Origin: Stropharia rugosoannulata
Lineage: Eukaryota > Basidiomycota > Agaricomycetes > Agaricales > Strophariaceae
DNA: 64,000 nucleotides
Assembly: GCA_028532985.1 (NCBI GenBank)
Contig: JANCIK010000007.1
Coordinates: 2,542,001-2,606,000, forward strand
Direction: 5' to 3'
The notes below the pieces were generated by a model that was not told the origin of the DNA, ran no database searches, and saw nothing but the letters and a program-made list of their open reading frames with translations. The translations under genes were made by a program, and so were the position numbers. Shown here one piece after another: positions 1 through 42,038 of the stretch. The first letter of the stretch is position 1, and every line of letters starts with the position of its first letter.

Positions 1-8
1 TTATCACC

Positions 9-1481
9 ATGCCTAAGGAAACGTCTATGCCTGTGCGCGGAGCGCGCAGTGCACCAAGCTTCGACCCCTCCGCTGAGCGTGATGAACTCCCACACTACTT
101 CGAGGACTTAGAGGACTGGTTCAAGCGCGCTGAGGTGACGGAGGATGATGAGAGGAGAGGCTATGTAATCAAATATGTACCCATGCAGACAGCGGAGGAG
201 TGGAAGAATTTACCAGGCTATGACACCAAGAGTTACGCTGAGCTGAAGAAGATGATCCTCAATGAATATCCTGAGGTGATCAGTATTCAGACGGGGTCCA
301 TCGCGCGCCTAAAGAAGCTGTGCAAGGAGAACCAGCGCATCTCGGAGGAAGACCTCCAGGTGCTGTTGGACTTCAAGCGGGCATTCTTAGCGGAGGCAGC
401 GAAGTTGACCAAGGCGCCTACCTTGCTGGCCAATCATATGCTGGTGACCTACTTCACCAACAGTCTCACAGCGGGGTTCAGGGAGAGGTTGTTTAACAAG
501 CTGGATATCGACTACACTACGAGAACATCGTTTGACAAGTACCTAAAGGAACGCAATATACCCTTTACGGCGCCAGCGGGGATTCAGGTGGAAGCGCGGA
601 CTGAGGACATGTATCCGCTGAAGCAGGTGGCAGAAATGGCGGAGCAGATGGCGCGCACCAAGAATCCTAGCACTTCGCTCAGCCTGACTCGAGACTCAGC
701 GGACGGGCTCATGCCTGTACCTGCCATCAAGACCGAGTCAGCAGAGGTGCATACGCTGCGCGGGGAGATTGAGGACTTGAAGGGTTTTGTAGTGTCGTTT
801 AAAGATACGTTGTCGCTGGTAGAAAAGACAGTGTCGAAGTCAAAGGAGACCAATAAGAAGGAGTTGGAAGATATTCTGCGCAATGTAATGTCATCGCGGG
901 CAGCGCCTGTAGCTGCGCCAGTCCAGCCAGCGGTACCTATGATGCCAATGGGAGGACCAGGCTTCAGCGGAGCGCCGATGCGCCCGTTTCAATACCAACA
1001 GCGACCTGAACCGAGGTGCTTCTATTGTAAACAGACGGGACACATCGTAGCGGAGTGTATTGTGAGGCAACAGGATCTGTCCGCTGGGAAGATAATCATT
1101 ACGGAAGCTGGAAGGCTCCAGCTGCCAGATGGATCGTCATTACCTTGGGACCCTTCGCGCGCTATCAAAGAACGTGTAGATGAGTGGCACAAGAAGAATG
1201 GGCCGCCAGCGCAGCAGACCTACATGGCGCCGGTACACCCAGCGTACATGGGGACTCCGCCGAGCATGGTGTACGCCCAGGTCTACCAACCAGCCAGCTC
1301 TCTCGATGAGACTTATGAGGAGCAAATTCAAACGCTGCAACAGGAGCTGGACAGCCGGAAGGCGTTCTTAAAGGAGCGCTCAGCGGTCAAGACGCCAGAG
1401 GAGGTGATAGAGGAACAGCGGCAGCTGATCGCGACCATGAAAGCGGAGCGGGATGCAGCGCTGAGCCAGGGTTTCGATTGA
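9..1481 (+). CDS. Gag-like capsid/nucleocapsid protein of G1
   Basis: This 490-aa ORF starts 8 nt into the window and encodes the presumed structural protein of the retrotransposon particle. Residues 337-350 form a CCHC zinc knuckle (CFYCKQTGHIVAEC), the RNA-binding signature of retroelement nucleocapsids. A helical region rich in charged residues precedes it (about 1-330) and a glutamate-rich, coiled-coil-like tail follows (about 430-485). It is the first of three ORFs in different frames. It ends with TGA at 1479-1481, and the ATG of the protease ORF begins 6 nt after the last base of that stop, in the -1 frame. It is about the usual size for a Gypsy Gag. Sure that it is a retroelement Gag. 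Confidence 0.9.
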   Translation: MPKETSMPVRGARSAPSFDPSAERDELPHYFEDLEDWFKRAEVTEDDERRGYVIKYVPMQTAEEWKNLPGYDTKSYAELKKMILNEYPEVISIQTGSIARLKKLCKENQRISEEDLQVLLDFKRAFLAEAAKLTKAPTLLANHMLVTYFTNSLTAGFRERLFNKLDIDYTTRTSFDKYLKERNIPFTAPAGIQVEARTEDMYPLKQVAEMAEQMARTKNPSTSLSLTRDSADGLMPVPAIKTESAEVHTLRGEIEDLKGFVVSFKDTLSLVEKTVSKSKETNKKELEDILRNVMSSRAAPVAAPVQPAVPMMPMGGPGFSGAPMRPFQYQQRPEPRCFYCKQTGHIVAECIVRQQDLSAGKIIITEAGRLQLPDGSSLPWDPSRAIKERVDEWHKKNGPPAQQTYMAPVHPAYMGTPPSMVYAQVYQPASSLDETYEEQIQTLQQELDSRKAFLKERSAVKTPEEVIEEQRQLIATMKAERDAALSQGFD

Positions 1482-1486
1482 GTCTG

Positions 1487-2755
1487 ATGAAGGGAAGCGT
1501 GGGCAGAGTTCAGCGTAGCAGCTCTGATAAACCCAAGAACCCGGAAGACGTAAATAAGAAGCTACCAGTAAGAAGTACACCAAGGACAACTATCGAGGAG
1601 GTCGACAGCGGAGATGAGGAAGAGTTTATAGAAGAGATTAGTAGACAGGCGCCCAGCGGAGCGGAGAAAAAGAAAGTAAGCTTTGCAGTGCCAGCGCAGA
1701 AAGTTGGGGAGAATAAAAAGCCAGCGCAGGTGCCGTATGTAATGGTTCCTCCGCTGCGCGTACCAGAAAAGAGTCGGCCGCCTGTAAGAGAAGCGCCGGT
1801 GCCAGTGATAGAGAAAAGGAAGCCAGCGTATAAGTTGCGCGCGGCCATTGAGGATGAAGCGCAAGCGGACGAAGTCCTTAAGCGTTTAGAGAGCCAGAAA
1901 ATAGAGATCACTCAAGGGCAATTATTGGGGATCTCTACAGCGGGGTTTAGGAGGAAGTTTGTCGAGCGTATCATACCGCGCAAAGTTCCGCTGGATGTAA
2001 ATACCATGCGGGTTTTGCAGCTGGATTATGAGGCAGAGGAGTGGGAGATGGATGAGGCCATCGCCCAGCTGAAGCAGGAGAATGAAGAAGAAGAGTTCAT
2101 GCGAATGGACGAGCTCCCAGCGGCGACGTTCCTCACTTGCGCGGAGGAGCGCGGTGGATTACAACCCGGCACAATAATCATGGAGGATCCCTATGAGCAA
2201 TACATCTCGATGTTACAACCAGGCGAAAAGCCAAAGGGATTAATTGTGGCACGAGAGTCGCACCATCTCAAGGCGGTATTTCCGCTGATCAATGGGAAAG
2301 GCCGTGCGGAGACTCTGCTCGACAGCGGATCGCAAATAGTGTCTATGGCGCAAGATACCGCGGAGCGACTAGGCTTAAGCTGGGATCCTGACTTTACCAT
2401 TAGGATGCAGAGCGCTAACAAACAAGTCGAGTCGACTAAGGGCTTAGCGCGGAATGTACCTTTTGTGTTCAGCGGACTGACAGTGTACCTACAAGTGCAC
2501 GTGATCAGCGCGGCCGCCTATGAGGTTCTGTTGGGGAAGCCGTTCGAAATTCTCACTGAAAGCAATGTGAAGACGCGCGGGGATGGTACAGTGGAACTTA
2601 CGCTGACGGACCCAAACACTCAGCGGAAGCTAGTGGTACCTACGTATAATCGGGGGTGCGGGCCGAAGATACTTCAGCGGGAACCAGATGTGCAGGACTC
2701 CAGCGCAGCGGAGGAGCCGCACGCCGACCAGGATTTTCAGTCCTCGATGATTTGA
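1487..2755 (+). CDS. Retropepsin-like aspartic protease ORF of G1
   Basis: This is a separate 422-aa ORF between gag and pol, starting at the first ATG after the gag stop. Retropepsins cut the Gag and Pol precursors during particle maturation. The catalytic motif is seen in LLDSGSQIVS, with the aspartate codon at 2321-2323, followed by a flap-like and hydrophobic stretch ending LLGKPFEIL. The first 230 residues are charged and low in complexity. The protease ORF ends in TGA at 2753-2755, which shares its A with the ATG of pol (TGATG). A protease on its own ORF, rather than fused to gag or pol, is less common. The open frame also runs back to a TTG at 1478, overlapping the end of gag, so -1 frameshifting is an alternative to re-initiation. 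Confidence 0.85.
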   Translation: MKGSVGRVQRSSSDKPKNPEDVNKKLPVRSTPRTTIEEVDSGDEEEFIEEISRQAPSGAEKKKVSFAVPAQKVGENKKPAQVPYVMVPPLRVPEKSRPPVREAPVPVIEKRKPAYKLRAAIEDEAQADEVLKRLESQKIEITQGQLLGISTAGFRRKFVERIIPRKVPLDVNTMRVLQLDYEAEEWEMDEAIAQLKQENEEEEFMRMDELPAATFLTCAEERGGLQPGTIIMEDPYEQYISMLQPGEKPKGLIVARESHHLKAVFPLINGKGRAETLLDSGSQIVSMAQDTAERLGLSWDPDFTIRMQSANKQVESTKGLARNVPFVFSGLTVYLQVHVISAAAYEVLLGKPFEILTESNVKTRGDGTVELTLTDPNTQRKLVVPTYNRGCGPKILQREPDVQDSSAAEEPHADQDFQSSMI

Positions 2756-5700
2756 TGCGTCAAGGAGAGGTCGCGTTAATGTTCGAGCGGGATGATAGGA
2801 CTGGAAAGATAGAGATAGCGGGGTATGCGTTGCCAAAGAATGGAGGGAGATTTGGCTCCGCTGAGCTGAGAGATGTGTACATGGCTCAAGCTGTGCACGA
2901 GGCTAAGATGGAGGATAAAGAGAAAGCATCAATTTATAAGTACTTTCAGCAAAAAGAATGGCAAGAAAAAGAGACGGTGAAAGGAGAGCCTAGGGGGCAA
3001 TTCCGCTCAGCGGACCCCGAGCAAGGCCAGCCCGCGCAGAAAGGGGTAACTAGAAAACGGTTAACTGGTAAAAATGCCACTACCGTAACCGTTTTTGCAG
3101 GAAAGAAATATAAGCCGGTCGCTGACAAGGTCAGGCCCGTTTATCAAGAGCTACCAGAGAAATTCAGAATAGTGAGGGAGATAAAGGGAGATCCGCTGAA
3201 AGAAATGCCTCCGCTGACGGTACACCCACCAGAGTTTGTACCCACGGGAAGGTACACAGCGGAGCGGAAGGAGGAAATAGATAAAGCGCACGGAGGAGAT
3301 TTCCTGTGGCCAGAGGAGCGCAAGCTAGTACATCAGGTGTTCATGCAGCAGAATGAGGCGTTTGCGTGGGATGACACGGAAAAGGGGAGGTTTAGAACAG
3401 ACTTCTTCCCGCCGGTAGATATTCCAACGGTAGAACATACGCCGTGGGTACTGAAAAATATACCCATTCCGCCAGGCATGTACGAGCGGGTGTGCGAGTT
3501 CATCGCTACTAAGATCCGCGCTGGGACTTATGAACCATCCAGTTCATCGTACCGGTCGTGCTGGTTCACAGTAACAAAGAAAGACGGGGTGTCCTTTAGA
3601 ATAGTACACAGCTTAGAGCCGCTGAACGCTGTTACCATCGCGCACTCAGGATTGCCGCCGGCAGCGGAGAGTCTGGCAGAACACTTCGCTGGGCGTGCGT
3701 GCGGTGGAATACTGGACTTGTATGTAGGCTACGACGAGCGGCTCTTAGCGGAGTCGTCTCGCGACTTAACAACATTCCAGACACCGTTTGGTGCGCTCCG
3801 CTTAGTAACCTTACCAATGGGCTGGACCAATTCTGTCCCCATCTTTCATGAGGATGTAACTTATATTCTCCGCGATGAAATACCAGACATCACGGAGCCG
3901 TACATTGACGATGTGCCTATCCGCGGACCGAAGACACGGTATGAATTAGAGGATGGAGGGTACGAGACGATTCCAGAGAACAGCGGAATCAGGCGCTTTG
4001 TGTGGGAACACATGCAGAATGTGAATAGGATAGTTCAGCGGATGAAGTACTCAGGAGGGACTTTCAGCGGGAAGAAATCCATATTGTGTGCAGCGGAGAT
4101 TGTAGTGGTGGGACACTTATGTACCTACGAGGGTCGAAAGCCAGCGCCAGATAAAGTGCACGCCATCCTCAACTGGGGACCGTGTAAGAACGTCAGCGAT
4201 GTGTGCGCCTTCATGGGTACGATGGGGCTCCTGCGTATTTACATCTCAGACTACGCTAAGCGAGCGGAGCACATACAGCGATTGTTGCGTGGGAAAGAAC
4301 CCTTCGAGTGGGGGCCAGCGCAGCAAGCCAGTATGGATGCACTGAAAGATGGAGCGCGGAACGCACACTGTGTCAAGCCGCTGGACTATACACTGCCAGG
4401 ACCAATCACGCTGGCAGTAGATACATCTTGGCGCGCTGTAGGATTTTATATCTACCAGCAAGATCCGCTGAACGCGAAGAAGCGTGTGTACGCCCGCTTT
4501 GGGTCAATTCTGTTAACTGAGAGGGAACAGCGGTTCTCACAACCAAAGAGAGAGCTATATGGGCTATTGCGAGCGCTGCAGGCGTGCTATTACTGGCTCA
4601 TCGGAGCGCGGAAGTTGGTAGTAGAGACGGATGCCAAATATCTCAAGGGGATGTTGGATAATCCGGGCATGGGACCTAACGCTACCATTAACCGCTGGAT
4701 AGACAAGATCCTTATGTACCACTTTCAGCTGAAGCATGTAGCAGGCAAAACATTTGGTGCGGACGGCCTGTCGCGACGAGAAGGACAACAAGGGGATGAA
4801 GAGTATGAACACTCAGCCGAGGATGATGACCAAGAAGTAGGTCCGCTGGAGTATGAGAAAGTGTATGAAGAGGATCCCAATCCGCTGAGTTTAGAAGAGT
4901 TCAAGGACCAGATTGACGACCGTGGAGGATATCTACAAGCTGGATTCCTCAACAAGTTGTTTGATGGTCCTGCTGAGCCAGCTAGAGCGGAGGCACATTC
5001 GGTTGACTGTTTCCAGTTAGAACTGGAGCGGGCGAGAAAAGAGACGAGAGAAGAACAGCGGACAGTGCGTAACTTCCTACAGACGGAGGAGGTGTCGCCC
5101 ACTCAGCGGGCGTACTTAGAGAAATTTGTTCTGGCACATGTAATTCCAGAGTCAAAGATAGACGAGTTAGAAGACGAAGAGTACGATGAGCGGAATCGAA
5201 CGTCAGCGGGGAAGGACATGGATGATAAGCTGCCAATGATAAGGTATTGGCTGCAAAATCCCAGTACAAGACCCAAGGATATGAGCAAACGGGAGTATCA
5301 GAATTTCATCCGTAACGCACGAAACTTCTTCTTAGACAAGGATGGGCGGATGTACCGGCGCTCAGTGGACGAGGCACATAAGCTGGTCGTAGATCCCGCT
5401 CAGCGGACGCGTATGTTGCGTGCAGTGCATGACAGTCTGGGGCACAGAGGTGCATACGCCACGCGCAAACTGCTGATGGAGCGCTTCTGGTGGCCAGAGC
5501 TGGAGCAGGATGTCTACTGGTATGTCAAGACATGCCATGTGTGTCAGCTGAGGCAAAAGACGATCATCCAGATTCCGCGGACGGAGACACATACGCCTTC
5601 CATCTTCCAGCAGCTACACGCGGACACTATGCACATGTCACCTGCCTCGAATGGGTATAACTACATAGTGCACGGACGGTGTGCGCTGAGCTCATGGGTG

Positions 5701-6690
5701 GAAGGTCGTCCGCTGAAGAAAGAGAACGCAAGGGCGATAGCGCAGTGGATGTTTGAGGATATTATCTGCCGCTGGGGATGTCTTAGAGAGATAATCACAG
5801 ATAACGGTGGACCGTTCCGCGCAGCGCTCAAGTACTTAGAAAAGAAGTATGGTATTACAGGGATTACAATCTCAGCATACAACTCTCAGGCGAACGGAAA
5901 GATAGAGCGGCCCCATTGGGACATCAGACAAATGTTGTGGAAAGCGTGTGGAGGTACCGAGGGCGCACATAAGCGCTGGAGCAAGTTCTTCTACCATGTG
6001 CTATGGGCGGACCGCGTTACAGTGCGCCGCGGATTTGGGTGTTCACCCTTCTTTATGGTCACCGGCGCGCACCCGATACTACCGCTGGACATCGCTGAAG
6101 CGACGTGGCTGGTCAAGTTACCAGATCGGGTACTTACCACAGAAGAGTTAGTAGGGTATCGTGCGCGCGCGCTGGCCAAGCATAGGGACACCGTGGAGGA
6201 GATGCGTCAGCGGGTGTCAAAGATAAAGCGGGATGCTATCAGAGAGTTCGAGCAAAAACACTCCGCTAAGATTAGGGACTATGTGTTCAAACCTGGCGAT
6301 GTCGTACTGATGCGTAACTCTGGCATTGAGTCCAGCTTAAATCGCAAAATGTTGGCGCGCTGGAATGGACCATACATTGTTATCGCGCGGAAGGAAGGAG
6401 GCGCTTATCTAGTCGCTGAGCTGGATGGGTCGGTGCTGAAAGACAAAGTTGCAGCATTCCGCTTAATACCCTACTTTGCCAGGCGCCAGCTGAAGCTGCC
6501 AGCGGACTTAGACGATATCATTGATCAAACGCGCGAGAACCTCAACAAGATGATGACAGCGCCAGACTACGAGCCGGCCATACCTAAAGATTATATCTTT
6601 GATGAACCAGGAGTGGCTTCAGGCAGCGGTCAAGTCTCAGCGGACGAAGAAGAAGATGATGAGGATGGGTGGGCGGAGCCCGATGCTTAG
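2755..6690 (+). CDS. Pol polyprotein of G1: reverse transcriptase, RNase H, integrase
   Basis: From the ATG at 2755 this encodes 1311 aa; the frame is open from 2656, overlapping the protease ORF. The reverse transcriptase has ILDLYVGYDER and the catalytic YIDD box at 3901-3912 (YLDD or YVDD in most relatives). RNase H begins near 4410 (LAVDTSWRAVGFYIYQQD). The integrase zinc finger lies near 5429-5549 (HDSLGHRGAY then CHVCQ). The integrase catalytic residues are D in HADTMHM (about 5620), D in ITDNGGP (about 5800) and E in GKIERPH (about 5905). The C-terminal 60 residues are acidic and no chromodomain is seen. The domain order RT-RNase H-IN makes this Ty3/Gypsy. No break was found, so it could be functional. 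Confidence 0.93.
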   Translation: MRQGEVALMFERDDRTGKIEIAGYALPKNGGRFGSAELRDVYMAQAVHEAKMEDKEKASIYKYFQQKEWQEKETVKGEPRGQFRSADPEQGQPAQKGVTRKRLTGKNATTVTVFAGKKYKPVADKVRPVYQELPEKFRIVREIKGDPLKEMPPLTVHPPEFVPTGRYTAERKEEIDKAHGGDFLWPEERKLVHQVFMQQNEAFAWDDTEKGRFRTDFFPPVDIPTVEHTPWVLKNIPIPPGMYERVCEFIATKIRAGTYEPSSSSYRSCWFTVTKKDGVSFRIVHSLEPLNAVTIAHSGLPPAAESLAEHFAGRACGGILDLYVGYDERLLAESSRDLTTFQTPFGALRLVTLPMGWTNSVPIFHEDVTYILRDEIPDITEPYIDDVPIRGPKTRYELEDGGYETIPENSGIRRFVWEHMQNVNRIVQRMKYSGGTFSGKKSILCAAEIVVVGHLCTYEGRKPAPDKVHAILNWGPCKNVSDVCAFMGTMGLLRIYISDYAKRAEHIQRLLRGKEPFEWGPAQQASMDALKDGARNAHCVKPLDYTLPGPITLAVDTSWRAVGFYIYQQDPLNAKKRVYARFGSILLTEREQRFSQPKRELYGLLRALQACYYWLIGARKLVVETDAKYLKGMLDNPGMGPNATINRWIDKILMYHFQLKHVAGKTFGADGLSRREGQQGDEEYEHSAEDDDQEVGPLEYEKVYEEDPNPLSLEEFKDQIDDRGGYLQAGFLNKLFDGPAEPARAEAHSVDCFQLELERARKETREEQRTVRNFLQTEEVSPTQRAYLEKFVLAHVIPESKIDELEDEEYDERNRTSAGKDMDDKLPMIRYWLQNPSTRPKDMSKREYQNFIRNARNFFLDKDGRMYRRSVDEAHKLVVDPAQRTRMLRAVHDSLGHRGAYATRKLLMERFWWPELEQDVYWYVKTCHVCQLRQKTIIQIPRTETHTPSIFQQLHADTMHMSPASNGYNYIVHGRCALSSWVEGRPLKKENARAIAQWMFEDIICRWGCLREIITDNGGPFRAALKYLEKKYGITGITISAYNSQANGKIERPHWDIRQMLWKACGGTEGAHKRWSKFFYHVLWADRVTVRRGFGCSPFFMVTGAHPILPLDIAEATWLVKLPDRVLTTEELVGYRARALAKHRDTVEEMRQRVSKIKRDAIREFEQKHSAKIRDYVFKPGDVVLMRNSGIESSLNRKMLARWNGPYIVIARKEGGAYLVAELDGSVLKDKVAAFRLIPYFARRQLKLPADLDDIIDQTRENLNKMMTAPDYEPAIPKDYIFDEPGVASGSGQVSADEEEDDEDGWAEPDA

Positions 6691-6810
6691 AAGTGCAAAG
6701 TAGAAAAGGAGACCACAATAGAATATATTGGGTAAACTAAAGGAGAAAGGTACAAAAGAAACTAGCTAAGGACCACTTTGAGGCGCTCAGCGGAGTAATT
6801 AAGAGGGCCG
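6691..6810. other. Short spacer between pol stop and antisense gene D stop
   Basis: About 120 nt separate the convergent ends of pol and antisense gene D. The stretch is purine-rich on the plus strand, and I see no clear polyadenylation signal for either strand. Sense and antisense transcripts would overlap here unless both end sharply. Confidence 0.5.
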
Positions 6811-8129
6811 TCACTGCGGCGCAGGCTCCTCAGCGGGACTGGTCCCAGTCAAATCCAAGCTGCGCTGTAAAGTCTCTAACTCTTTAACGAGCAGAGCGCG
6901 GCGCTTCAGGATGAAGTCAATCTTGTGCAAGTCACAGATGATCTCAGCTTGCAAGTCTCCGATGAGACGGCAGGTGACGAGCTCGGATGGGTTCCCGGTG
7001 TTCAGCGGTTCCTTAATGAGGTTGGTAGCAGCGTCGAGACAGGCATTGACTTTGTCATTCGAGAGAGTAAGATTGGTACCTAAAAGAAGATGAAATAGTT
7101 CAGCGGACGCAACAGAGAGGAGTGAGGGCAAAGAGCGCACCCTGTACAATGAAAGGAGAATCGGCGAAAGTAGGAACGCCGTCAGCGCCGAGACGGGCCT
7201 TCTTAGAGGAAGCATCGTGGAACGGTGTGTTGCGCGGAGAGCGCCGGTTGTCAGAAGAGCGGAGTGTCATGCCGCGGCCAAGCACACGAGTGCGATGTCC
7301 GCTGGCCTCAGTGCGCTCCTGCTGACATAGAAGTAAGAAAGTAACGAGAAAGGGAAGATGCAGCAGAACGAACCTGACGAGGAGTGTCGGGAGGAGGCGC
7401 TGAGCGCTTCTTCGAAGGACTAGGCTCTGGGGTATTCTGGCGGCTAGGTACCCCGCCCTCAGTGGCAGCCTCGATCTTGTCATTGAGGGCCATCTTTTTA
7501 AGGAGAAGGTACAGCTGCATGTTAGTAATATCTAAAAGGGTGAAGGAAGTCAGTCACACCTTGTCGTCATCGGAATCGGGGGATGAGGTACCTCCAGGGG
7601 CAGAGACCGTCTCAGTGTCGGCAGCGGAGCGCGAGAGGAGGCGAACGTTGCGCTGAGCGGACGGTTAGTAAAAAGATAAAAGAGAGGCAGCAAGCACACA
7701 GCGTACTGGTCCAGTGGGAGTGTGCATGCGCTGGCGCGAGGCTGTGGCTTTCGCTTTTAAAACTTGCTCATGCAGAGTGATAAAAGTGTTGGCAGCGGGA
7801 GAGAAAGTGCGGAAGTGGTGATCCGCCTCTAAGGAGGTGTAGATGGCACGCGTCTCGTTGAGAATATCAACAGCTTCGCTGTTATTGATAATACGAGTAA
7901 TGCCGCCGTGGGGATCACACCAGCGGTTCTAAAAAGTTCGAGTGGTCAGCGGAGTAAAAGGCCCAGCGGACCAGCTGAGTGCTGTGCGTACTAAGTCAAT
8001 AGCCAGAAGCTCGAGGCTCCCGGTATAGTTGGAAGGCATGGCGGAAGCCAAGCCTCTGATATCTTGGATTAATGCCAGCTGGTGTTTGACATTACTAAAG
8101 TTGTACAGCGGAGCGGGGGCGTTGGACAT
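6811..8129 (-). CDS. Antisense accessory gene D of G1, six exons, unknown protein (347 aa)
   Basis: I do not recognise this protein. My model on the minus strand has exons 8129-7992, 7928-7707, 7652-7560, 7514-7374, 7321-7141 and 7079-6811. The introns are 63, 54, 45, 52 and 61 nt. The spliced length is 1044 nt, exactly 348 codons with the stop. Introns 1 and 2 have donor GTACGC and branch sites CTGAC and CTAAC. Intron 3 has CTAAC close to its CAG acceptor; the branch sites of introns 4 and 5 are weak. Exons 2 and 3 have no usable ATG and show only after splicing. Residues 1-120 are hydrophobic/helical and include NRWCDPHGG at the start of exon 2. A serine/proline/lysine-rich linker lies at about 135-240, and the last 90 residues are leucine-rich with heptad-like spacing. 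A TATA-like box lies 37-44 nt upstream. It is convergent with pol. Exon borders 3-5 are the least certain. Confidence 0.72.
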
Positions 8130-8165
8130 TAGTGGCTGAGTGATTCAAAGTAGGAGAGTAGGGCA

Positions 8166-8173
8166 TATATATA
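8166..8173 (-). promoter_or_regulatory. TATA box of antisense gene D
   Basis: TATATATA on the minus strand lies 37 nt before the ATG at 8129. It implies a very short 5' leader, as for the other antisense genes of G1. Confidence 0.6.
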
Positions 8174-8581
8174 GGCTCAGCGGAGCGCAGAGGACCTAAT
8201 GAGGGGCGGCCAGTGGCGAGGAATGTGGCATCCCAGCAGACCAGACTCCCAGCGGAGTTATGGTATGAACGCTGGAGGTAGAGACAGACCACCACATGCA
8301 GGCTCGCATAAAACAGGGTGCAGAGCGGGAGCAATTGATAGACGAAATGAGATCCAGCGGAGAGGCGCGCCTAGCCGGAAGCGCTCAGCGGAGGCTGATC
8401 GTGTGATTACCGCATTTGGAAAAATCATGTCCGAATCAGGTATTGGCACCGACAATACATAGTGCCTAACTAGATACTTGTCATTTCAAATAGCTATAGA
8501 GGCACCACATGTAGAGCCATTTACTCTGGTTACTGTAACAAAGGTACCCTACGGAGTAAACCAAGGAAGGGGCGCAATGCC
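8174..8581. other. Intergenic stretch between antisense genes B and D
   Basis: About 400 nt with no convincing exon. It carries four or more copies of the CAGCGGA motif (for example near 8177, 8251, 8355 and 8387) and presumably serves as the upstream region of gene D and the 3' flank of gene B. The 87-codon plus-strand frame at 8199-8462 has no recognisable feature. Confidence 0.4.
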
Positions 8582-9128
8582 TCAAACGTCCTGACATAAT
8601 CCTGGTCTCAGCGCAGCGGAGAAGGAAGAGAAAAGGGGACAGACGGGGAAGAAGTCCTCCTGGTAGAAATGCTGGGCGGCATAATGGAGGCATTGAAAGT
8701 GTTCGGTGTGATTAAGGACGCCGTAGCGCTCAGCGTCGTTGGTACCACACAGGCGAAGCACAAGTTCGGTGTAATACAGCTGAGCGCAGAGATGAGAAAG
8801 AAGCGGTGAATGACAGGTGGACTCGGTCAGCTCTAGGCCGCGCTGCACGGACTACTCAGTGGAAAGTGCATTGCCAGCGGAGAAAGGGGCTTACGGCGTG
8901 ATCTTGAACTCGGTTAAGCAGCGGGAGGCAGACACCCATAGGTAGCTGTTCCTCCACAGCGGAGTCCAGAATATAGTGAAGGGCAGTTATATAGATCCGG
9001 CATACTCGGGCTACATCGTGGGGAGGAATGTCGCTCAGCGGACGTCTAGACAAAGCATCGAGACGAAGGATGCGAGGATCGGAATGTGCAAGTAATAAGA
9101 GGTTACTCTCAGCGGACAAGGAGGGCAT
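8582..9128 (-). CDS. Antisense accessory gene B of G1, two exons, unknown protein (167 aa)
   Basis: I do not recognise this protein. Exon 1 is 9128-8895 (78 codons) and exon 2 is 8851-8582, with a 43-nt intron (donor GTAAGC, acceptor TAG). Both exons are in the same phase, and the spliced frame runs 167 residues to a stop. Exon 2 alone has no ATG. The start is chosen because the ATG at 9128 follows a strong TATA-like box. The product looks mainly helical, rich in leucine and histidine, with scattered cysteines (GVCLPLL, HLCAQLYY, LRLCGTND) but no zinc-binding pattern. Its intron has a weak branch site, so the exact junction is less certain than in genes A and C. It lies head to tail with genes C and D on the minus strand. 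Confidence 0.65.
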
Positions 9129-9160
9129 GTTGGTATATACGAATACAGACCGAGGGAGTT

Positions 9161-9170
9161 ATATTATATA
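9161..9170 (-). promoter_or_regulatory. TATA box of antisense gene B
   Basis: TATATAATAT on the minus strand starts about 42 nt before the ATG at 9128. It is the most AT-rich stretch in this part of G1. Confidence 0.6.
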
Positions 9171-9314
9171 CGAAGATGGTCAGCGCAGCGGACCACCCTA
9201 ATCAGAGCACACGTCGTCTACGATGAGCGCGGCATCAGGGTCCACTTCTTGAACATCGGCTGCAATTCGCTCAGAAGAAGGCAGCAGATGGAATGGCATG
9301 CCCAGATGACTGTA

Positions 9315-9669
9315 TCAGTCGAGGACCCGTAAGGCGGCATTACTGAGTAGGCATGGGTCGAAGTGATCATCGCTGAACTTCCGCTGAGCGCGGGCCTCGT
9401 AAAACACGATGGTCATGAGGAACGCCAGAAACTGGCGATTAAAGTCGATGAATCTCAGCGGAAGGGCGATGCGATCCTGTGGAGATAGTCAGCAGAGGGG
9501 AATCTACGAAACTGAGCCTTACCAGCGTGCGGACAACGGCCTGCGCTGACTGCAAAGGCAGGTGAATCGTAGTTTCAGCGGAGTCCTCGGTGAGCTCAGC
9601 ATGGACAGCCAGCTGCTTGAGGATCGTGGTGAACTGGCGGGTGACATTGGTGCGCTGGTAGCGTTGCAT
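9315..9669 (-). CDS. Antisense accessory gene C of G1, two exons, unknown protein (102 aa)
   Basis: I do not recognise this protein. Exon 1 is 9669-9523 (49 codons) and exon 2 is 9476-9315 (53 codons plus TGA). The 46-nt intron is textbook: donor GTAAGG, branch TGCTGACT, acceptor CACAG. Exon 2 has no ATG of its own and is visible only through splicing, which argues for a real gene. The product is a small helical protein: a polar first half (MQRYQRTNVTRQF), then a hydrophobic stretch containing FLAFLMTIVFYEA, then an acidic DDHFD segment. The start is the first ATG after TATAAAA at 9725-9719. Gene B follows 187 nt downstream on the same strand, with its own TATA-like box. Confidence 0.75.
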
Positions 9670-9700
9670 GACAGAATGAAGGAGAAGGCTAATGAGCCTG

Positions 9701-9737
9701 TCAACTGAGGACAGTTGATTTTATAGTGAGGGGGAGA
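9701..9737 (+). repeat. Internal copy of the stem-loop plus polypurine tract
   Basis: A 7-bp stem TCAACTG/CAGTTGA with loop AGGA (9701-9718) is followed by TAGTGAGGGGGAGA (9724-9737). The same layout and the same purine string precede the 3' LTR at 12588-12625. It could be a central polypurine tract or a duplicated end. On the minus strand the T-rich link is the TATA box of gene C. Confidence 0.7.
9719..9725 (-). promoter_or_regulatory. TATA box of antisense gene C
   Basis: TATAAAA on the minus strand, 50 nt before the ATG at 9669, embedded between the stem-loop and the internal polypurine tract. Confidence 0.65.
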
Positions 9738-10087
9738 GAGCCCGCTAAAATATATGACTGCGGAGCACGTGCAAAGAAAAGAAGTCCGCTGAGCGGACCT
9801 GAGAAGAGAGAAAGAAACCAGCAAACATGCAGCGGAAGAGAATTGGCTGTGGGAGAGCCCGGGCAACAATTAAGATACCTCCTCAAAAGTTTGCAGGCTG
9901 CTCAGCGGAGCGGAAATCTTAACAACGACTCCAGAAATGGCAAGGTCACACAAACACAGAGGGAGACAACAAGAAGCATATTTGATATTGGACATAATCT
10001 ACTTTACATATGCTAGATAAAGTAGGGAAGAAAGAAAGACTGGTACAAAATAGGAGAGAACAATAGTCCGCTGAGAGTGCGCGCCGA
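9738..10087. other. Intergenic stretch between antisense genes A and C
   Basis: About 350 nt without an exon that I can support. It carries CAGCGG/CCGCTG motifs near 9785, 9831, 9902 and 10068, and an AT-rich part ending in an inverted repeat just past the stop of gene A. Confidence 0.4.
9999..10025 (-). terminator. Inverted repeat in the 3' flank of antisense gene A
   Basis: CTACTTTA and TAAAGTAG pair as an 8-bp stem with an 11-nt loop, about 60 nt beyond the stop codon of gene A. It may mark the 3' end of that transcript; this is inference from position only. Confidence 0.35.
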
Positions 10088-12187
10088 TCAGACGTCATCC
10101 TCGGGAGCCTCCTCGGCGTCCGCTTCGCTGGGGACGCGGGAAGGGGTCAACTTGGGTACGCGAGGGCGAGGTGTAGGGCGAGGTGGGGCAACCCCTTTGC
10201 CTTTGGAAGAGGAAGGCGCAGGACTGGGGGCGGGGCGTACAGTGCTCTTGCCTTTGGACAAGGAAGGCGCAGGACTGGGAGCGGGGCGCACAGTGCTCTT
10301 GCCTTTAGAAGAAGTCAGCGCAGAGCTTGGGGCAGAACGCGCGGTGGTACTAGGACCGGGAGCAGACCCAAGAAGGACCTGGGAGACGGTTTCCTCGGAG
10401 AGCGGGTCGGATACGACTTTCTTGGAGGACTTCTTCTTCTTTCGCTTTTCAGCAGTGGTAAAATCTTCTAAGGTCTGAGCCTCGGTAGGCTGCGCGGAAG
10501 GAACAAAGGAGGCGGGATCGAAGCGGGGGTGCGCGGGGTCGTAGAAGCGAGAGACGGGGATGACGCTGGGAGGAGCTTCCAAGTCCAACGGCGCGCAAAG
10601 GCGAGTGTATGTGTCGCGAACGAGCTCTAAGTCCAGCGAGCGGAGGGCATCCAAGGTCTCGCTATCCGAGAAACGACGACCGATAAGGACGGCAGTAGGG
10701 AGCGTAGCGGCCATAGCGCGCGCCAACTGCGCAAGCTCCATCAACTGAGCAAGGTAGAGGCGCTCCGCGCTCCTGCGCTGTTCTTCCGCGACGCGGGCTT
10801 GATCTTCGAATACGGATAAGCGCGCGAAGCCCAACTGGAGATCTACAAGACCGGAATGTCAGTAGAACATAAAATAAAAGGGGAAAAGAAACTTACTAGA
10901 AAGGGATGTCTGATGCCAAAGAGTGGAATCAGCAATGGATTTGTCCAGCTCAGCGGGCTCGCAGCAAAATAGGCAGGGGCCTTTTCCTTGTACGCTGCAG
11001 GTACAGCAGGTTTTCGCCCAACCACGGCAGATGCATTGATGAAAGCTTTTGTCGACGCGCTCGTTGAAAGGGCGGTTGCACAGACTGCACACCATACCCT
11101 TCTAGAAAAGGAAATATAAAGTTAGAAAGCAGCGCGGGAAGGAAAGAAAGAGACTTACGATGATAATCCCCTGGAGGCGATTCTCAGAGGGGATCTGGGA
11201 CATATCAATAGCCCCAGGAAGCGGAGCGCCAGCGAGAGCCATCCTTGCAGAAAAGACGGGAGGGACCACGTTGAGAATAGGATAAGTGGACTTGTAAGCG
11301 GATCGGCCGCTGTCCCGGGCAGAAAGGAGAGGGAGCTCCTCGACCCCGCTATAAGTAAAAATGGGGGAGTCGGAAGAGTCAGAACTAGAGGCCAGCTGAG
11401 CTTGAGCGGCTAAGAAACAGGTCAGTAGACCTTGAAGGAAGTGAAGTAAGGGAACATTACCCGAGATAGCAGCGTTAGCGGCTACAGCGGCATTCCGCTG
11501 ACGTTTTTGGGGCTGTCCGCTGGGGACAGGAGGAGGAGGCATCAGCGCGGGGGACGATAAGCGCTTGCGCTTGTCAGCGCTGCGGGACAGGGCAGGGGAA
11601 GCAGTACGGGGGGAGCCAGGACCAGAAGTCATTTGGATGTCCTCGTCATCGGAAGGCAGAGCAGTCAGTGAGGCGCGAGTAGCAGGGACACGGGAACCAG
11701 GCCAGGTCGCAGGGAAGGCGGTAGTAATGATCTCCTTGTAAGATGGGAGCTAAGGGAAAAGAACTCACGAAGTCAGCAAAAAGAAAGGAAATAAAAAGAA
11801 ATATAAGAGGCGCACCGGACTCAAGTCCGTCTCCAGGTACCAGATGCTCCGCTCAGAGGGGTCCTCCTTGTTCCAGCCAAACTCGTCATCCTCCACAAAG
11901 TCCGCGATGCAAGAAAGGATGATGCACAATTCACGGACGCCGGCATGGGTTGTCTGGTCACTGGGGTAGCGGGTGAGGTGACGCTCGACGCACGACGCGA
12001 ACAGGTCGCGAATAGCGTAAAGGCGAGCGGAGTCAGCACTGGAAATCCGCGAGCCGCCAGCAAGGTCTTCGAATTCGTCGTACTCGGCGAGGGCGAGGCG
12101 AAGATGGCGGAAGCGGTCCTGGGCATCGAGGCAGGCGTCCTCAGCCTCCTGTGCGCGGCGCTTGCGGTCGAAGTTTCTGAAGGCCAT
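10088..12187 (-). CDS. Antisense accessory gene A of G1, five exons, cysteine-cluster protein (623 aa)
   Basis: I do not recognise this protein. The minus-strand model has exons 12187-11816, 11749-11461, 11409-11159, 11101-10897 and 10842-10088. The introns are 66, 51, 57 and 54 nt. The total is 1872 nt, exactly 624 codons. All four introns have CTGAC or CTAAC branch sites; donors are GTGCGC, GTAATG, GTAAGT and GTAAGT. Residues 1-124 are charged and helical (start MAFRNFDRKRRAQEAED). A proline/serine-rich stretch with a basic run follows (about 165-215). Exon 4 holds ten cysteines in 43 residues (309, 312, 327, 329, 336, 337, 339, 347, 350, 351; core CRGWAKTCCTC), a likely zinc-binding module. 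A helical segment, a lysine run (KRKKKKSSKK), 17-residue repeats and an acidic tail end the protein. The second intron is in frame and could be retained. A nucleic-acid-binding role is a guess. Confidence 0.78.
10190..10345 (-). repeat. 51-bp tandem repeat inside gene A exon 5
   Basis: Two near-perfect and one diverged copy of a 51-bp unit encode SKGKSTVRPAPSPAPS-type repeats. The unit length keeps the reading frame, as expected for a coding repeat. Confidence 0.7.
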
Positions 12188-12262
12188 TCGAAATAAAGAG
12201 AGGGAGAAAGCAGAGAGAGAAGAAAGGCAGAGGATGGGGAGCGCAGAGAAAAATAGAGCCAA

Positions 12263-12269
12263 TTAAATA
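12263..12269 (-). promoter_or_regulatory. TATA-like box of antisense gene A
   Basis: TATTTAA on the minus strand starts about 80 nt before the ATG at 12187. It is weaker than the boxes of genes B, C and D. Confidence 0.45.
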
Positions 12270-12587
12270 GAAAGGGGGCGGGAGCGGAATGCCAGAAGAT
12301 TCTGGCACACAGAAAAGCGGGAAAAGAGAAAACGAAGTAGTGGCGGCGTCCAATAGGCTCGGCGGTAATTCACTTAGAAAGCGGAGACGAGAAGCAGCGG
12401 CGAACTTCTCAGAAAGGAAAGCGGAGACCTGAAAACAAAATTGGGCAGAGATCTACTATATGTGTAGGAATGACGAACAATGAGTAACCGGACCTAAAAA
12501 TAGGCCAGATAAGCGCCTGAGGGCTAAAAATAGAGGATGAGGCGCTAAAGGGTAGCTGATCACGCTAAGTCCGGTGGCTGGGATGCA
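12270..12587. other. Upstream region of gene A, non-coding
   Basis: No exon seen on either strand. It contains a repeated CTAAAAATAG decamer (near 12494 and 12524) and an inverted repeat AGCGCCT/AGGCGCT (about 12512 and 12539). These may be promoter elements of gene A or part of the region before the polypurine tract. Confidence 0.4.
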
Positions 12588-12625
12588 TTGACTGGGGACA
12601 GTCAAAATTTTTAGTGAGGGGGAGA
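12588..12625 (+). promoter_or_regulatory. Stem-loop and 3' polypurine tract of G1
   Basis: TTGACTG/CAGTCAA pair around a GGGA loop (12588-12605). A T-rich link and TAGTGAGGGGGAGA (12612-12625) follow. The purine run directly precedes a TG dinucleotide, the expected start of the 3' LTR, where plus-strand DNA synthesis would be primed. Confidence 0.75.
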
Positions 12626-14035
12626 TGACAGGCCTGCGTTTACACCAAGGCTGTAAGTGGCCACAGCGGGCGGTTTGGGCTGGAGTGCAAGGGTACAGCG
12701 GAGCGGTGACTAGCCTGGTCAGCCGTCTCAGCGCTCAGCGCGTGCATCACAAATCATCACGCGTGTGCTCAGCGGGCGGTTGTGTGGGGTTCAGCGGACT
12801 GTACAGGCCATAAGTACACAGCTGAAGTACCCGGAATAGCAGTCAGCGGAGCACATAACGGTTACTGTCGTCCCAGCGGGAGGCAGGAGTACAGCTGAGC
12901 GGAAAATATCAAAGGCGACGAGCAGGACTGTGTGTAGACAGCGTCTCAAAGGGGCTCAGCGGAACACATCACGAAGGCGAAATTTGCCTAAGTCCACTCG
13001 TCAGGTGACCGTGGCGCACGCGCTGGAGCGTGTGATGCCCGAGGGAATGACTAATGCACACAGCACAGACTCCGCTGGGGAACTTTGGCAGCAGTAACCA
13101 GATCTCAATAACCCAGAAGGAACCGCTCAGCGGAGTTCAATGGCGTCTCTTGGCGGAGGCTGGCAACACAACGAGGTCAGGTCGCGCTCAGCGGGGTAGT
13201 CATCAAAATGCCCAGCGGAGGCACATGCGCTCAGCGGACCTTTGGTCCGGCGTTGCTAGTATTTACTCTCCACCTAAATTAGTACACAGCGCGCGTCTAT
13301 ATAACCTTGTAATTGTAACTACGGAAATCAAGCAATTGTCTACCCACTAGATCTGTGTGTTGGGCTCCGTCCCAGACCGTCAGCGGGCTTTGTTTAGCTT
13401 TTGTTAGGGTCTTTACTGTGAAGTGTATTGTGAATCATAGAAGTTTTGGATAGCTTCTGGCCACCGGGTCATTTGGAGAGCTCAGCGGGGAGTCAGTGCA
13501 ACCGTGTACGAAAACTCGCGCTGTAGTGTTTTGTGAATTGAGACTGCACCACAGGGTGAACGAGGTTCTGGATAGCCTCAGCGGAATAGGACTTTGGACA
13601 GTCCCAGCGGAACGACCTTGGATAGTCAGCGGAGCGAGGCACAATTGGGAATACCAGCTTGTGTGAGCATCTGCATCGGTCACCGGACCTCAAACCCACT
13701 CAGCGGAATAAGCCCCGCGGAGCCACCATCAAAACTATACATTACTATCGATACCCTGCGCTCAGCAGAGGTCGCCCAGACATTAATCTGAGACTTCTAG
13801 AATTAAACCCCTCCTTAAAAACGAACTTGCAGGCACTGTACAGCGGATATCCATCTGGACAGAACTTACGAGACTCTCAAACATCACAGTCCGCTCAGCG
13901 GAGAGGACCAGGAGAAGCGTAGACATCTATAATCCGTTTAGCTGAAGAGCATCGCTCGATCTAAGGGATAGGATCTCGCTCCGCTGGGGTTGTGTGTGTT
14001 TGTGTCTCTTGTGATTCGAGTCTAGCCCCGCGGCA
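12626..14035 (+). repeat. 3' LTR of G1 (about 1.41 kb)
   Basis: The start is TG right after the polypurine tract. The end is placed at CA (14034-14035), where Copia coding sequence resumes in the next bases. A TATA-like box (TCTATATAA, about 13294-13302) would drive the sense transcript. I count about 20 copies of CAGCGG/CCGCTG here by eye. Its partner LTR is outside the window, so the ends rest on position and the TG/CA rule. The five bases after it, GACCT, are the predicted target-site duplication. Confidence 0.65.
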
Positions 14036-15130
14036 GACCTCTCAACGTGCTTCATGTTCCCGAGGCAGAGAACTGCCTACTTTCGCTTGGTTGCCTGGAT
14101 GATGCACACGGAAAGGTTGCTTTTTCGGATGGGAAGTGTGTGCTCCTTGACCGGAAGGATAGGGTTATTGGGACAGGTGTGAAGCATGGGCGTCTGTATT
14201 TGCTCAATGCTCGCGCTCAGGTTGCGGTACAGGAACGTACAAATTTTGCGTCGCCTCAGAAGCGTTCTTGGGCACAGTGGCATCATTGTTTTGGCCACAT
14301 CTCGGTCCCCTCACTCCAGAAACTCAGCAGGGATAACTACGTCGATGGAATGGCTGTAGACGAGACGTCTAATCCCCCAGGTCATGCGAGGCTTGTATCC
14401 AAGCCAAGCAGATGCATAAGCCCTTCCCTGCTGAAACTCAGCATCGCTCAAACACACCTGGAGAGCGTACTATGAGCGATGTTTGGGGACCAATTGGTGT
14501 CCGCTCAATTGGAGGTTATTATTATTATATCACCTTTATGGACGACGCTAAACGTTATAACTCAGTTTTGTTCCTGCGCAACAAGGTGGAGGCAGCGGAT
14601 CGGATTGAGGAGCACGCAGAACGGGTCAAGAGACGCTTCGGGAAGTACCCCAAATATTTGCGTTTTGATAATGGCACAGAGCTCGTAAACGAAAGGATTA
14701 GACGCTGGGCAGCAAAGAGGGGCATTGAAATCGAAACTACAGCACCTTATTCACCGTCTCAGAACGGTGTAGCGGAGCGCTACAACCGCACGCTTTTAGA
14801 GCTCGCTCGTGCGATGCTTATTGCCCGAAATCTTCCCTTATTTTTGTGGGATGAAGCTGTCTCGTATGCAAATTATTTACGCAACCGTGCGTCTACACGA
14901 GCTCTGAATGGTATGACGCCGTATGAGGCCTGGCACGGGCGGCGACCGGACGTTTCGCACCTCAGGGAGTTTGGGTGCAATGTATGGGTGTTGGACGAGA
15001 CCAAAGGACTGTCCAAACTTAAACCACGGTCGAAGAAGATGGTCTTTGTGGGCTTTAATGAGGGATCAAAGTCAGTACGCTATTATGACCCTCAGAAGCG
15101 CAATATTAAGTCCTCGCACAACGTAGCATT

Positions 15131-15323
15131 TGTTGGGATTGGAGAATGCAATCCAACATTCCAGTCTACTCTCGAAGGAATGTAATGACTCATTAGTTAG
15201 TAAGCTACTTAGTAATTACAATGTAGATGAACTTTGTAGAACATTGTAGATACTTTTCTGTAGGTATAAAAGACTGTATGTATACCTACTAAAATATAAC
15301 ATTATTCATTCTTATTTCCAACA
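15131..15323 (+). repeat. 5' LTR of the gag-only element
   Basis: Begins TGTTGGGATT and ends CCAACA. The first 28 bases hold an imperfect inverted repeat (TGTTGGGATT with AATCCAACA). A TATA box TATAAAAG lies at 15265-15272. Confidence 0.92.
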
Positions 15324-15338
15324 GGTTATGAGCCCTGG
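15324..15338 (+). promoter_or_regulatory. Primer-binding site matching the anticodon arm of initiator tRNA-Met
   Basis: GGTTATGAGCCCTGG directly follows the LTR. It is complementary to the CAGGGCTCATAACC anticodon stem-loop of eukaryotic initiator tRNA-Met. Priming by a half-molecule of this tRNA is known for Drosophila copia. Confidence 0.75.
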
Positions 15339-15405
15339 CCTTCAGTAACCGACTCACACTCTCTTGCTGACCACTGCGCTTCACGCATCTATTTATATCC
15401 TGATT

Positions 15406-16257
15406 ATGTCACTCGCACCCGAGCGCCTCACTGCCGGCATCACGAAACTTGATGGAAGCAATTACCACGATTGGAAATTTGCCATAAGCATCGTACTCCG
15501 TTCACGTGGATGTTGGGAGATTGTATCCGGCAAGGTGAAGAAACCAAACGATGAGAAGGAATTGGACAACTGGAAGAAGAAGGCCGAGGACGGACTCATG
15601 ATTATTGGACTCACCGTACAACCCAGTCAATATGTCTACATCCGAGATTCAATTGATGGCACAGAAGCATGGGAAGCACTTAAAGCCATTCACGAGAAAA
15701 ACAGCCGTGCTACTCGCATCTCACTCAAGCGGCAGTTCTACAGCTTCGAGCATGATATCGACAGGCCCATGGAATTATATGTCAACGGCATCACGGATTT
15801 AGCTGGAAAGCTCAAGGCAATAGGCATCTCGCTTACCGATGAAGAGATAACAGATGTTCTAATCTTCAACCTGCATGCCGATTACTCAAGCATCGCCTCT
15901 ACGCTCACGGCATCAAAAGACGATCTAAAAATATCTGATGTCACTGGAGCACTGATCGAAGAAGAACGAAGGAGAGGAGGGCCATTAGGAAATTTAGGAA
16001 CCCCTGATTTGGCAACATCACTTTATGGCAGTGGACCACCTAATGTACGAAGAGGACCACACAGAGACAGACGAGAAGGCTTAACAGACAACCGCACATG
16101 TTACCGCTGCCGCCGCACTGGTCACATAACCAAATTCTGTCACGCGACGACGTACGCCGATGGGAGCAAGATTCCGGCCGAACCGGAGAAAACCGAGGAG
16201 AGGTCATCCGTCGCATATTACAACAACTGGTCGTTGAATGACGAAATCTCATTTTGA
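15406..16257 (+). CDS. Copia-type Gag of the nested element
   Basis: The first ATG in the frame is at 15406 (MSLAPERLTAGITKLDGSNY), giving 283 aa; upstream codons of the same frame lack an ATG. The N-terminal two thirds match the Copia Gag (UBN2-type) layout, with LDGSNYHDWKFAI near the start and LKRQFYSFEHD in the middle. A CCHC zinc knuckle CYRCRRTGHITKFC lies near residue 235. The ORF is intact. The protein would coat element RNA, while all enzymes must come from elsewhere. The host Copia here lacks its own gag in this window, so this may be the family's gag, but I could not compare them. Confidence 0.9.
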   Translation: MSLAPERLTAGITKLDGSNYHDWKFAISIVLRSRGCWEIVSGKVKKPNDEKELDNWKKKAEDGLMIIGLTVQPSQYVYIRDSIDGTEAWEALKAIHEKNSRATRISLKRQFYSFEHDIDRPMELYVNGITDLAGKLKAIGISLTDEEITDVLIFNLHADYSSIASTLTASKDDLKISDVTGALIEEERRRGGPLGNLGTPDLATSLYGSGPPNVRRGPHRDRREGLTDNRTCYRCRRTGHITKFCHATTYADGSKIPAEPEKTEERSSVAYYNNWSLNDEISF

Positions 16258-16283
16258 AGAAATTATATTGGAAGGATTAAGAC

Positions 16284-16470
16284 AGATGCAGATGCTGTGT
16301 GCCTGCATATATTGGATGTGCTTAGACGCAGATGCTGTGTGCCTGCGAAAATTGTGGACTCGTGTTGATGCTTTGTGCCGACACATTGGAACAGCAACCA
16401 GATGCTTAGTGCCTGGGAATATTGGAGGATAATTTAGGTGTGGATGCTTAGTGCCTGCACATTATGGTAA
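16284..16470 (+). repeat. Five degenerate repeats before the polypurine tract of the gag-only element
   Basis: Five copies of a unit with core GATGCT(G/T)(T/A)GTGCC followed by an ATTGGA-like end begin near 16287, 16331, 16367, 16401 and 16443. Spacing is about 35-45 nt. They fill the stretch between gag and the polypurine tract. Confidence 0.7.
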
Positions 16471-16497
16471 TCGCGGAATTATATGGAATGTTGACTT

Positions 16498-16506
16498 GAG
16501 GGGGAG
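16498..16506 (+). promoter_or_regulatory. Polypurine tract of the gag-only element
   Basis: GAGGGGGAG directly precedes the 3' LTR at 16507. Confidence 0.85.
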
Positions 16507-16699
16507 TGTTGGGATTGGAGAATGCAATCCAACATTCCAGTCTACTCTCGAAGGAATGTAATGACTCATTAGTTAGTAAGCTACTTAGTAATTACAATGT
16601 AGATGAACTTTGTAGAACATTGTAGATACTTTTCTGTAGGTATAAAAGACTGTATGTATACCTACTAAAATATAACATTATTCATTCTTATTTCCAACA
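16507..16699 (+). repeat. 3' LTR of the gag-only element
   Basis: 193 bp, no difference seen from the 5' LTR, so insertion was recent. Followed by the GCATT duplication. Confidence 0.92.
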
Positions 16700-39330: not shown

Positions 39331-39348
39331 CACGTCTAGGTCCATATT

Positions 39349-39534
39349 CTACAGCTTGGGCTGCTTGAACTTACCAAAGTCATGCAACGTATCCGCGAAT
39401 CTTGTAAATACATTACAGCAGTCCCTTCTATCGAATCCCCACTGATATATAATTCCCGCATTTCTGGGGCGCTTCGTGACGAGCAACGTGTCGCGCATGG
39501 TAATGCAGACATGGGCACCAGAGGCAAGACTCAT
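39349..39534 (-). CDS. Conserved small ORF downstream of HET copy 2 (61 aa), unknown
   Basis: MSLASGAHVCITMRDTLL begins 192 nt after the HET stop. The same 61-codon frame is present downstream of HET copies 1 and 3, with mostly conservative changes (QWGFDRRDCCNVFTRF here, QWGFDTRDCWNVFTRF in copy 3). This suggests recent constraint or recent common origin. A pyrimidine-rich stretch ending TAG just before it looks like a 3' splice site in copies 1 and 2, so it may be the last exon of a larger gene, not a free ORF. It does not join the HET frame in a consistent phase. I recognise no domain. Confidence 0.45.
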   Translation of the reverse strand: MSLASGAHVCITMRDTLLVTKRPRNAGIIYQWGFDRRDCCNVFTRFADTLHDFGKFKQPKL

Positions 39535-39725
39535 AGCTTGACCTACCAGGAGAACAGGAGAGCGGAGAGCTAAGACGGATTGAGGGGTATGCTGCCCCGG
39601 CCCCTTCTTGACACCACATCTGGTCCCCGCCCACTCGCAACCTCCAGTACTTAGGAGCCACTGTACATGTATGGAAGTTATATATTACAATTACAAGTAT
39701 CCACACTAGAATTGACGATACACTG

Positions 39726-41966: not shown

Positions 41967-42038
41967 TGGGATACGCTGCAGTGATTTCAAAGTGTCTGAG
42001 AATGGGGATGCAACGTGTGACCGTCATGGACGGGATGC

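Follow-up and report, generated by a model that had tools for sequence, protein, structure and literature searches.

Among retrotransposons of the Ty3/Gypsy type, antisense open reading frames (ORFs) between pol and the 3' long terminal repeat (LTR) are known from the plant elements Retand, Grande, and RIRE2, and the passages on them describe these ORFs as possibly DNA-binding (PMC11963269, PMC7264820). Here, we analyze a stretch of 64,000 nucleotides of the basidiomycete Stropharia rugosoannulata (contig JANCIK010000007.1, positions 2,542,001 to 2,606,000; referred to as the window), the start of which falls just inside a Ty3/Gypsy element that spans window positions 1..14044. As in Retand, Grande, and RIRE2, antisense genes are located between pol and the 3' LTR, and the plant precedent to which an earlier note on this DNA had pointed agrees with these sources. 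Unlike in the plant elements, as far as these passages portray them, the genes are four multi-exon genes, termed D, B, C, and A, which are accompanied by a family-specific word array, and one of them is hypervariable. Our reading, to which we assign a probability of roughly 0.5, is that a product of this cassette may read the family word and act in anti-silencing or self-transcription, with A as an exchangeable polymorphic partner.

A further parallel is provided by the VANDAL transposons of plants and their VANC proteins, for which sequence-specific anti-silencing and short, dense, family-specific words that differ between related families have been reported (PMC5735166, PMC10398659). The element studied here shares with them a dense word that differs in a related family and the possession of accessory proteins. 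However, VANDAL elements are DNA transposons, the words of which, in the parts of these papers considered, occur mainly in noncoding tandem repeats, whereas the present words are dispersed over an LTR element, coding DNA included. Neither the VANC domains DUF1985/DUF287 nor the TRP28 domain (PF04195) of Retand-type antisense ORFs was found in A to D, which gave no match to a Pfam family at E values up to 1. Since the element is an LTR retrotransposon, its antisense proteins lack Pfam matches, and its words are also present in coding DNA, it is not a member of the VANDAL/VANC group.

Extra polypurine tracts and repeated motifs with a CGG core in the LTRs are described for Sireviruses (PMC2829016), and both features recur here; Sireviruses, however, belong to Ty1/Copia and have palindromic motifs in the LTR and linker, and the passages on them mention neither an antisense cassette nor a variable module between tracts. 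According to the same source, the Ty3/Gypsy elements Athila4 and Calypso have a single additional polypurine tract, which like that of our element lies in the linker between pol and LTR, but they carry an ENV gene. In fungi, DNA transposons encoding TET/JBP are on record (PMC12730594); these resemble the present element in having a gene that possibly acts on DNA methylation, which is a prediction in our case, and differ in being DNA transposons with a recognized enzyme, whereas A to D are without Pfam match. In the open-access literature, searched at the level of titles and abstract beginnings, no fungal element with this combination of features was found, in line with the earlier note; antisense genes by themselves are known from the plant Gypsy elements, and extra polypurine tracts from Sireviruses, Athila4, and Calypso, as far as these sources go.

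Spliced antisense genes

Between pol and the 3' polypurine tract, the minus strand contains the following predicted genes:

6811..8129, minus strand: gene D, exons 8129-7992, 7928-7707, 7652-7560, 7514-7374, 7321-7141, and 7079-6811 (spliced-ORF search, copies, and relatives across the genome)
8582..9128, minus strand: gene B, exons 9128-8895 and 8851-8582, with an acceptor at 8843 also possible (spliced-ORF search, copies, and sister family)
9315..9669, minus strand: gene C, shortened in the window copy, exons 9669-9523 and 9476-9315 (spliced-ORF search and copies)
10088..12187, minus strand: gene A, 623 amino acids, Cys-rich (zinc-cluster-like), exons 12187-11816, 11749-11461, 11409-11159, 11101-10897, and 10842-10088
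10898..11101, minus strand: Cys-rich exon, located where A is best conserved (15 sequences compared, with 36 of 68 columns invariant)

Copies were sought in 47.97 Mb on 20 contigs and all come from this single genome; loci are designated by L numbers. Window 7000-8500 as the query gave 40 scored matches out of 99 candidates, at least 28 of them near full length with 94-100% identity, and a search with gene D yielded at least 370 matches at exon level across the genome, with 117 of 255 candidates scored. For D, B, and C, 15 of 20 rows (the window and 19 loci) were aligned. Left out were L006, L047, L048, and L050, which are partial or interrupted, and L051, which belongs to another family; since the partial or interrupted rows were dropped, the alignment is tilted toward intact copies.

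Exon lengths of D, B, and C are constant in the 15 copies, the sole exception being an insertion of about 800 bp in exon 5 of D in L045, the columns of which were excluded from codon counts; most introns and spacers show indels among the same copies. All seven introns of the three genes have GT..AG ends in 15 of 15 copies, and no internal stop was found. As judged from these alignments, D, B, and C are under purifying selection: the ratio of nonsynonymous to synonymous differences per site (pN/pS) between copies is 0.124 for C, 0.167 for B, and 0.171 for D, as compared to 1.3-3.1 in shifted frames. The copies thereby confirm the spliced antisense genes that had been proposed, the splicing being predicted from their comparison. 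The random frame-breaking indels that the earlier note had named as evidence to the contrary are absent from D, B, and C in the 15 kept copies, five rows, broken ones included, having been dropped beforehand.

As to whether frames could close by chance over so many junctions, the top-scoring model reached 46.5 on the minus strand, as compared to 13.4 on the plus strand and 8.4-26.1 for 10 shuffled sequences; it is the copies that are decisive. The proposed frames of 1044 (D), 504 (B), 309 (C), and 1872 nt (A) fared differently. In the spliced-ORF search, the models for D (score 27.68) and B (11.28) ranked second, narrowly behind alternatives of 1098 nt (27.76) and 495 nt (11.30), respectively; the peptide of D exon 4 in the 1044-nt frame is also kept in the sister family, and the splice acceptor of B is ambiguous between 8852 and 8843. 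For A, the top model has 1923 nt and three introns, and 1872 nt result from the removal of a further 51-nt GT..AG interval, 11460-11410, in a model that the search did not output; this intron is the least certain part of the A model. The 309-nt model of C ranked first but does not represent the family, because it ends at a premature stop after 102 codons that is private to the window copy; 14 of 15 copies have 141 codons.

A TATA-like box had been claimed upstream of each ATG. It is present for D and B in 15 of 15 copies and for C in the window, where TATAAAA at 9725-9719 overlaps the central polypurine tract described below; the copy test did not detect the C box because the stretch examined ended at 9720. 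For A, only a TATTTAAT-like sequence was read in the window copy. The earlier proposal that antisense introns are not lost in retrotransposition, as the genomic RNA represents the sense strand, is a sound inference.

In the sister family, represented by L051, D, B, C, and A occur in the same order and on the same strand. Amino acid identity to the window family is 66% for D, 66% for B, and 72% for C, with saturated synonymous divergence (dS), and pN/pS amounts to 0.31, 0.29, and 0.21, respectively, the L051 models of D and C being imperfect. Several splice donors of the L051 minus-strand genes read GTGCGC, which resembles the start of the sister family's own word.

The family word and its switch

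The earlier note missed the word array. It also overlooked that a second polypurine tract exists, that A is hypervariable, and that C is truncated. The array and the sense-strand features to which its counts refer are:

1..14044, both strands: CAGCGGA/TCCGCTG array, 73 sites, densest in the LTR (counts, shuffles, and divergence tests)
9..1481, plus strand: gag-like ORF, 490 amino acids, zinc knuckle (Pfam zf-CCHC, E 0.0011, 19.4 bits, just under the 20.8 cut-off)
1484..2755, plus strand: aspartyl protease ORF (Pfam gag-asp_proteas, 9.1e-9, above the cut-off)
2656..6690, plus strand: pol ORF with RNase H followed by integrase, the Ty3/Gypsy order (Pfam RT_RNaseH, 6.7e-11, residues 583-688; Integrase_H2C2, 1.2e-17, residues 912-968)
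12626..14044, plus strand: 3' LTR; the 947 bp of 5' LTR compared show no difference from 13098-14044

The 73 sites on both strands over 14 kb compare to 2.6 expected. Through most of the element, CAGCGG has a density of 7-15 per kb, which peaks at 14.8 per kb in the LTR; gene A and the sequence that follows it have 2.3-2.4 per kb, and the remainder of the window has 0.62 per kb. In 1000 synonymous shuffles of each coding region, gag had a mean of 0.7 and a maximum of 4 words, as opposed to the 6 observed, protease a mean of 0.8 and a maximum of 5 (9 observed), and pol a mean of 2.5 and a maximum of 9 (17 observed). These coding words fall in three reading frames and both orientations.

Comparison of copies established constraint on the non-CpG bases of the word. 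Their divergence was 0.0067 in 13 LTRs, 0.0118 in the spacer between B and D, and 0.0069 in D-B-C, as compared to 0.0735, 0.0582, and 0.0559, respectively, for context-matched bases; the constraint is best put at fivefold to tenfold, because the CAG context outside the word may be inflated by decayed words. Control hexamers, 25 in number, gave ratios of 0.10-2.09; in the window copy, each of those below 0.3 occurs at 3 or 4 sites. The observed/expected ratio of CpG is 0.95 in the element and 0.53-0.63 in the loci of four decayed copies, flanks included, and the lower values fit what methylation would cause. Paired words number 242/265 genome-wide, against 12/11 for the reversed pattern.

The sister family, which shares the cassette, uses TGCGCGCA, at sites other than those of CAGCGGA. 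L051 has 57 copies of TGCGCGC and 3 of CAGCGGA, and all five further D loci of the sister family have 7-9 TGCGCGC per 2.5 kb with 0-2 CAGCGGA. In the paired pattern, the sister word occurs 111 times genome-wide and once reversed. Among the paired sites listed, at least 10 are situated no more than 500 bp from a D match, as judged by eye. Among 23 and 11 aligned word sites of the two families, a single pair overlaps, and the word sites are less alike between families (0.524) than their surroundings (0.671). As far as alignments can establish it, the word has thus been switched between sister families. A third, distant family (L052, 1-5990) has 17 copies of TCGGAAA versus 0.9 expected, with a weaker genome-wide pair excess (69/62 versus 7/19), and contains spliced antisense gene models, one of them for a Cys-rich protein.

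Gene A between two polypurine tracts

Gene A is located in a module that is bounded by two polypurine tracts:

9724..9737, plus strand: central polypurine tract (TAGTGAGGGGGAGA), an exact copy of the 3' tract, the T-rich start of which is the TATA box of C on the minus strand
9738..12611, unstranded: hypervariable module with gene A, between the two tracts (tile identity, dS, and haplotype clusters)
12612..12625, plus strand: 3' polypurine tract (tract comparison)

The central tract lies between C and A. At up to 2 mismatches, no further copy was found in window 14048-64000, and one match with 2 mismatches is present in pol at 3170. Of 18 family rows, 12 have both tracts with no more than 1 mismatch, 7 of these being exact in both, and L051 likewise has both. 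At this threshold, L040 has only the 3' tract, its central tract being one base shorter, L042 and L044 have only the central tract, and L014, L046, and L049 have neither. In L051 and L045 an altered base is common to both tracts; in L013, L038, L041, and L048 the tracts are unlike each other.

The comparison of copies established that the module is hypervariable. In copies with another A haplotype, tile identity to the window does not exceed 60% in gene A, whereas it is mostly 90-98% in the LTR, D, and pol. Identity is high across the central tract, falls directly after it, and recovers just before the 3' tract, with an extra dip inside C. The 23 copies clustered (of 24 loci, L014 being without match) form 10 haplotypes at 90% identity, 13 at 95%, and 8 at 85%, with a median pairwise identity of 67%. 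Ten of 15 A models were used for dS and nonsynonymous divergence (dN), with L038, L043, L044, L048, and L050 left out; 11 of the 15 reach 572 amino acids, and the other four look broken or mis-modelled. The dS of A exceeds 1 in pairs with a D dS of 0.04-0.14. The reverse pattern also occurs, in that the window copy and L041 share A (dS 0.06) at a D dS of 0.13. L039 and L041 are 99.88% identical over the 4233 bp up to the central tract, after which their A genes are 51% identical, with a dS of 2.1, the A model of L039 being short. Since both are neighbors on one contig and apparently nested, gene conversion between them is possible.

Three proposals concerning A were set aside. An import of A alleles from the sister family is not supported, as the A modules carry the word of their own family: those of 14 family copies have 2.1-5.2 CAGCGG per kb and 0-2 TGCGCGC each, and the sister A module has 15 TGCGCGC (three module boundaries were placed manually, namely the start in L040 and the end in both L042 and L044). 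A as the word reader is disfavored, since one word accompanies A alleles that are about 50% identical. The L039/L041 breakpoint as proof of priming at the central tract was rejected, because any homologous recombination would give it.

Possible roles of the cassette and neighboring sequences

In the mechanism that we favor, each of the four antisense genes would have a TATA promoter of its own for expression, and the CpG-containing word of the family would be recognized by one or more of the products, most likely from the conserved set D, B, and C. Selection would have distributed this word throughout the element. Proteins bound along the array would identify the element as self and oppose silencing by host CpG methylation or drive the element's own transcription, a logic akin to that of the VANC system. 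A probably does not set the word, because it is common to copies whose A alleles are very different; located between the two tracts, A may be swapped among copies by recombination and kept diverse, perhaps for evasion of a host suppressor or for telling copies apart. We infer word reading by a cassette protein, the countering of methylation, and the selected diversity of A from the comparisons reported above. More tentatively, and with greater doubt, the cassette may be a complete self/non-self system, in which an antisense-encoded complex reads a private word that extends through the entire element and its coding regions, families diverge by rewriting word and proteins together, and A, which two putative plus-strand primers would flank, moves from genome to genome as a polymorphic module for recognition or evasion.

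Several results weigh against the favored mechanism. No DNA-binding domain was identified: besides the absence of Pfam matches for A to D, 4 of 15 Cys-rich exons touch Pfam FYVE_2, at E 0.41 or worse, and a Protein Data Bank (PDB) search gave no match for D and, for the Cys-rich exon, no E value below 0.21. The structure model of this exon is poor (predicted local distance difference test [pLDDT] 51.9), and that of D exon 6 is helical (pLDDT 77.4). One of the 25 control hexamers, with 3 sites, has as low a divergence ratio (0.10) as the word. The CpGs of the word decay nearly like others (0.116 versus 0.150 in LTRs, 0.090 versus 0.083 in the B-D spacer), so that no protective effect of a word on the CpG within it is apparent after insertion; we read this decay as possibly reflecting methylation after insertion, with selection working in the active lineage. 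In 33 of 200 null windows of 2.5 kb, the top heptamer reaches 7-14 copies, so that 7-9 TGCGCGC are weak singly, but they count because the same word recurs five times. In a fourth family (L058, 2.5 kb), the top-heptamer test gave no clear word. Finally, the dN of A is well below its dS, which therefore does not indicate rapid adaptive change.

This last point bears on the possibility that the diversity of A is a neutral mosaic, in which old A lineages persist and recombination or gene conversion homogenizes the rest up to the end of homology. The saturated dS of A with its much lower dN is in favor of it, as is the identical tract of the neighboring L039 and L041, which stops where heterology starts; the 10 haplotypes in 23 copies of a family that is homogeneous elsewhere suggest maintained diversity instead, and on balance we lean slightly away from neutrality. 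We consider it rather unlikely that the array works as an enhancer, with dense sites at which transcription or chromatin factors encoded by the host or by the element act, and that the cassette encodes other accessory proteins without a role in anti-silencing. The density peak in the LTR and the missing DNA-binding domain would be explained in this way, but the word exceeds codon need in gag, protease, and pol, and a switch between cassette-sharing sister families in one genome is not easily reconciled with a fixed host factor. That the antisense genes were captured once from the host and are passengers is suggested by their introns, yet it is very improbable, because two or more families have retained these genes in an unchanged order, with purifying selection acting on them. 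Least probable of all is that simple repeats, codon use, or base composition produce a spurious motif excess. Other words do peak in the window, with 14 ATATATA in one 5-kb tile and 10-11 CGCGCGC in tiles with a short inverted-repeat element, but these peaks are local, whereas CAGCGGA spans 14 kb in three frames and both orientations, beats synonymous shuffles, and is constrained at its non-CpG bases.

In the literature considered here, as far as the sources go, the cases of sequence-specific anti-silencing by transposons are plant DNA transposons. If the mechanism that we favor is true, escape from silencing without derepression of other elements would become testable in another kingdom, and two sister families that differ in their word within a single genome would provide a natural experiment.

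The element itself is a Ty3/Gypsy LTR retrotransposon, as domain order, paired LTRs, and polypurine tract are all present, although the Pfam search of the pol ORF gave no match to a model of the reverse transcriptase domain itself. Because the 5' LTR stretch matches the 3' LTR exactly (100% over the 947 bp compared), insertion is recent. Adjoining it, window 14047-16700 contains ORF remnants, which we take to be Ty1/Copia-like, beside a 194-bp perfect direct repeat with copies 1376 bp apart. A large inverted duplication (window 38000-42389 and 53546-57949) may extend further, as 38000 was the start of the search; its arms each have a related ORF (39726-41285, minus strand, and 54628-56019, plus strand), presumably fungal HET-domain-like. 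A short element of about 800 bp occurs twice (window 43985-44788 and 62041-62844), with perfect inverted ends of 71 bp, which are AGTCGCGCG-rich. Elsewhere in the genome (G000:C1, 4673701-4701185), TGCGCGCACCCTGCGCGCA is present at four places about 9.15 kb apart, perhaps as a tandem array.

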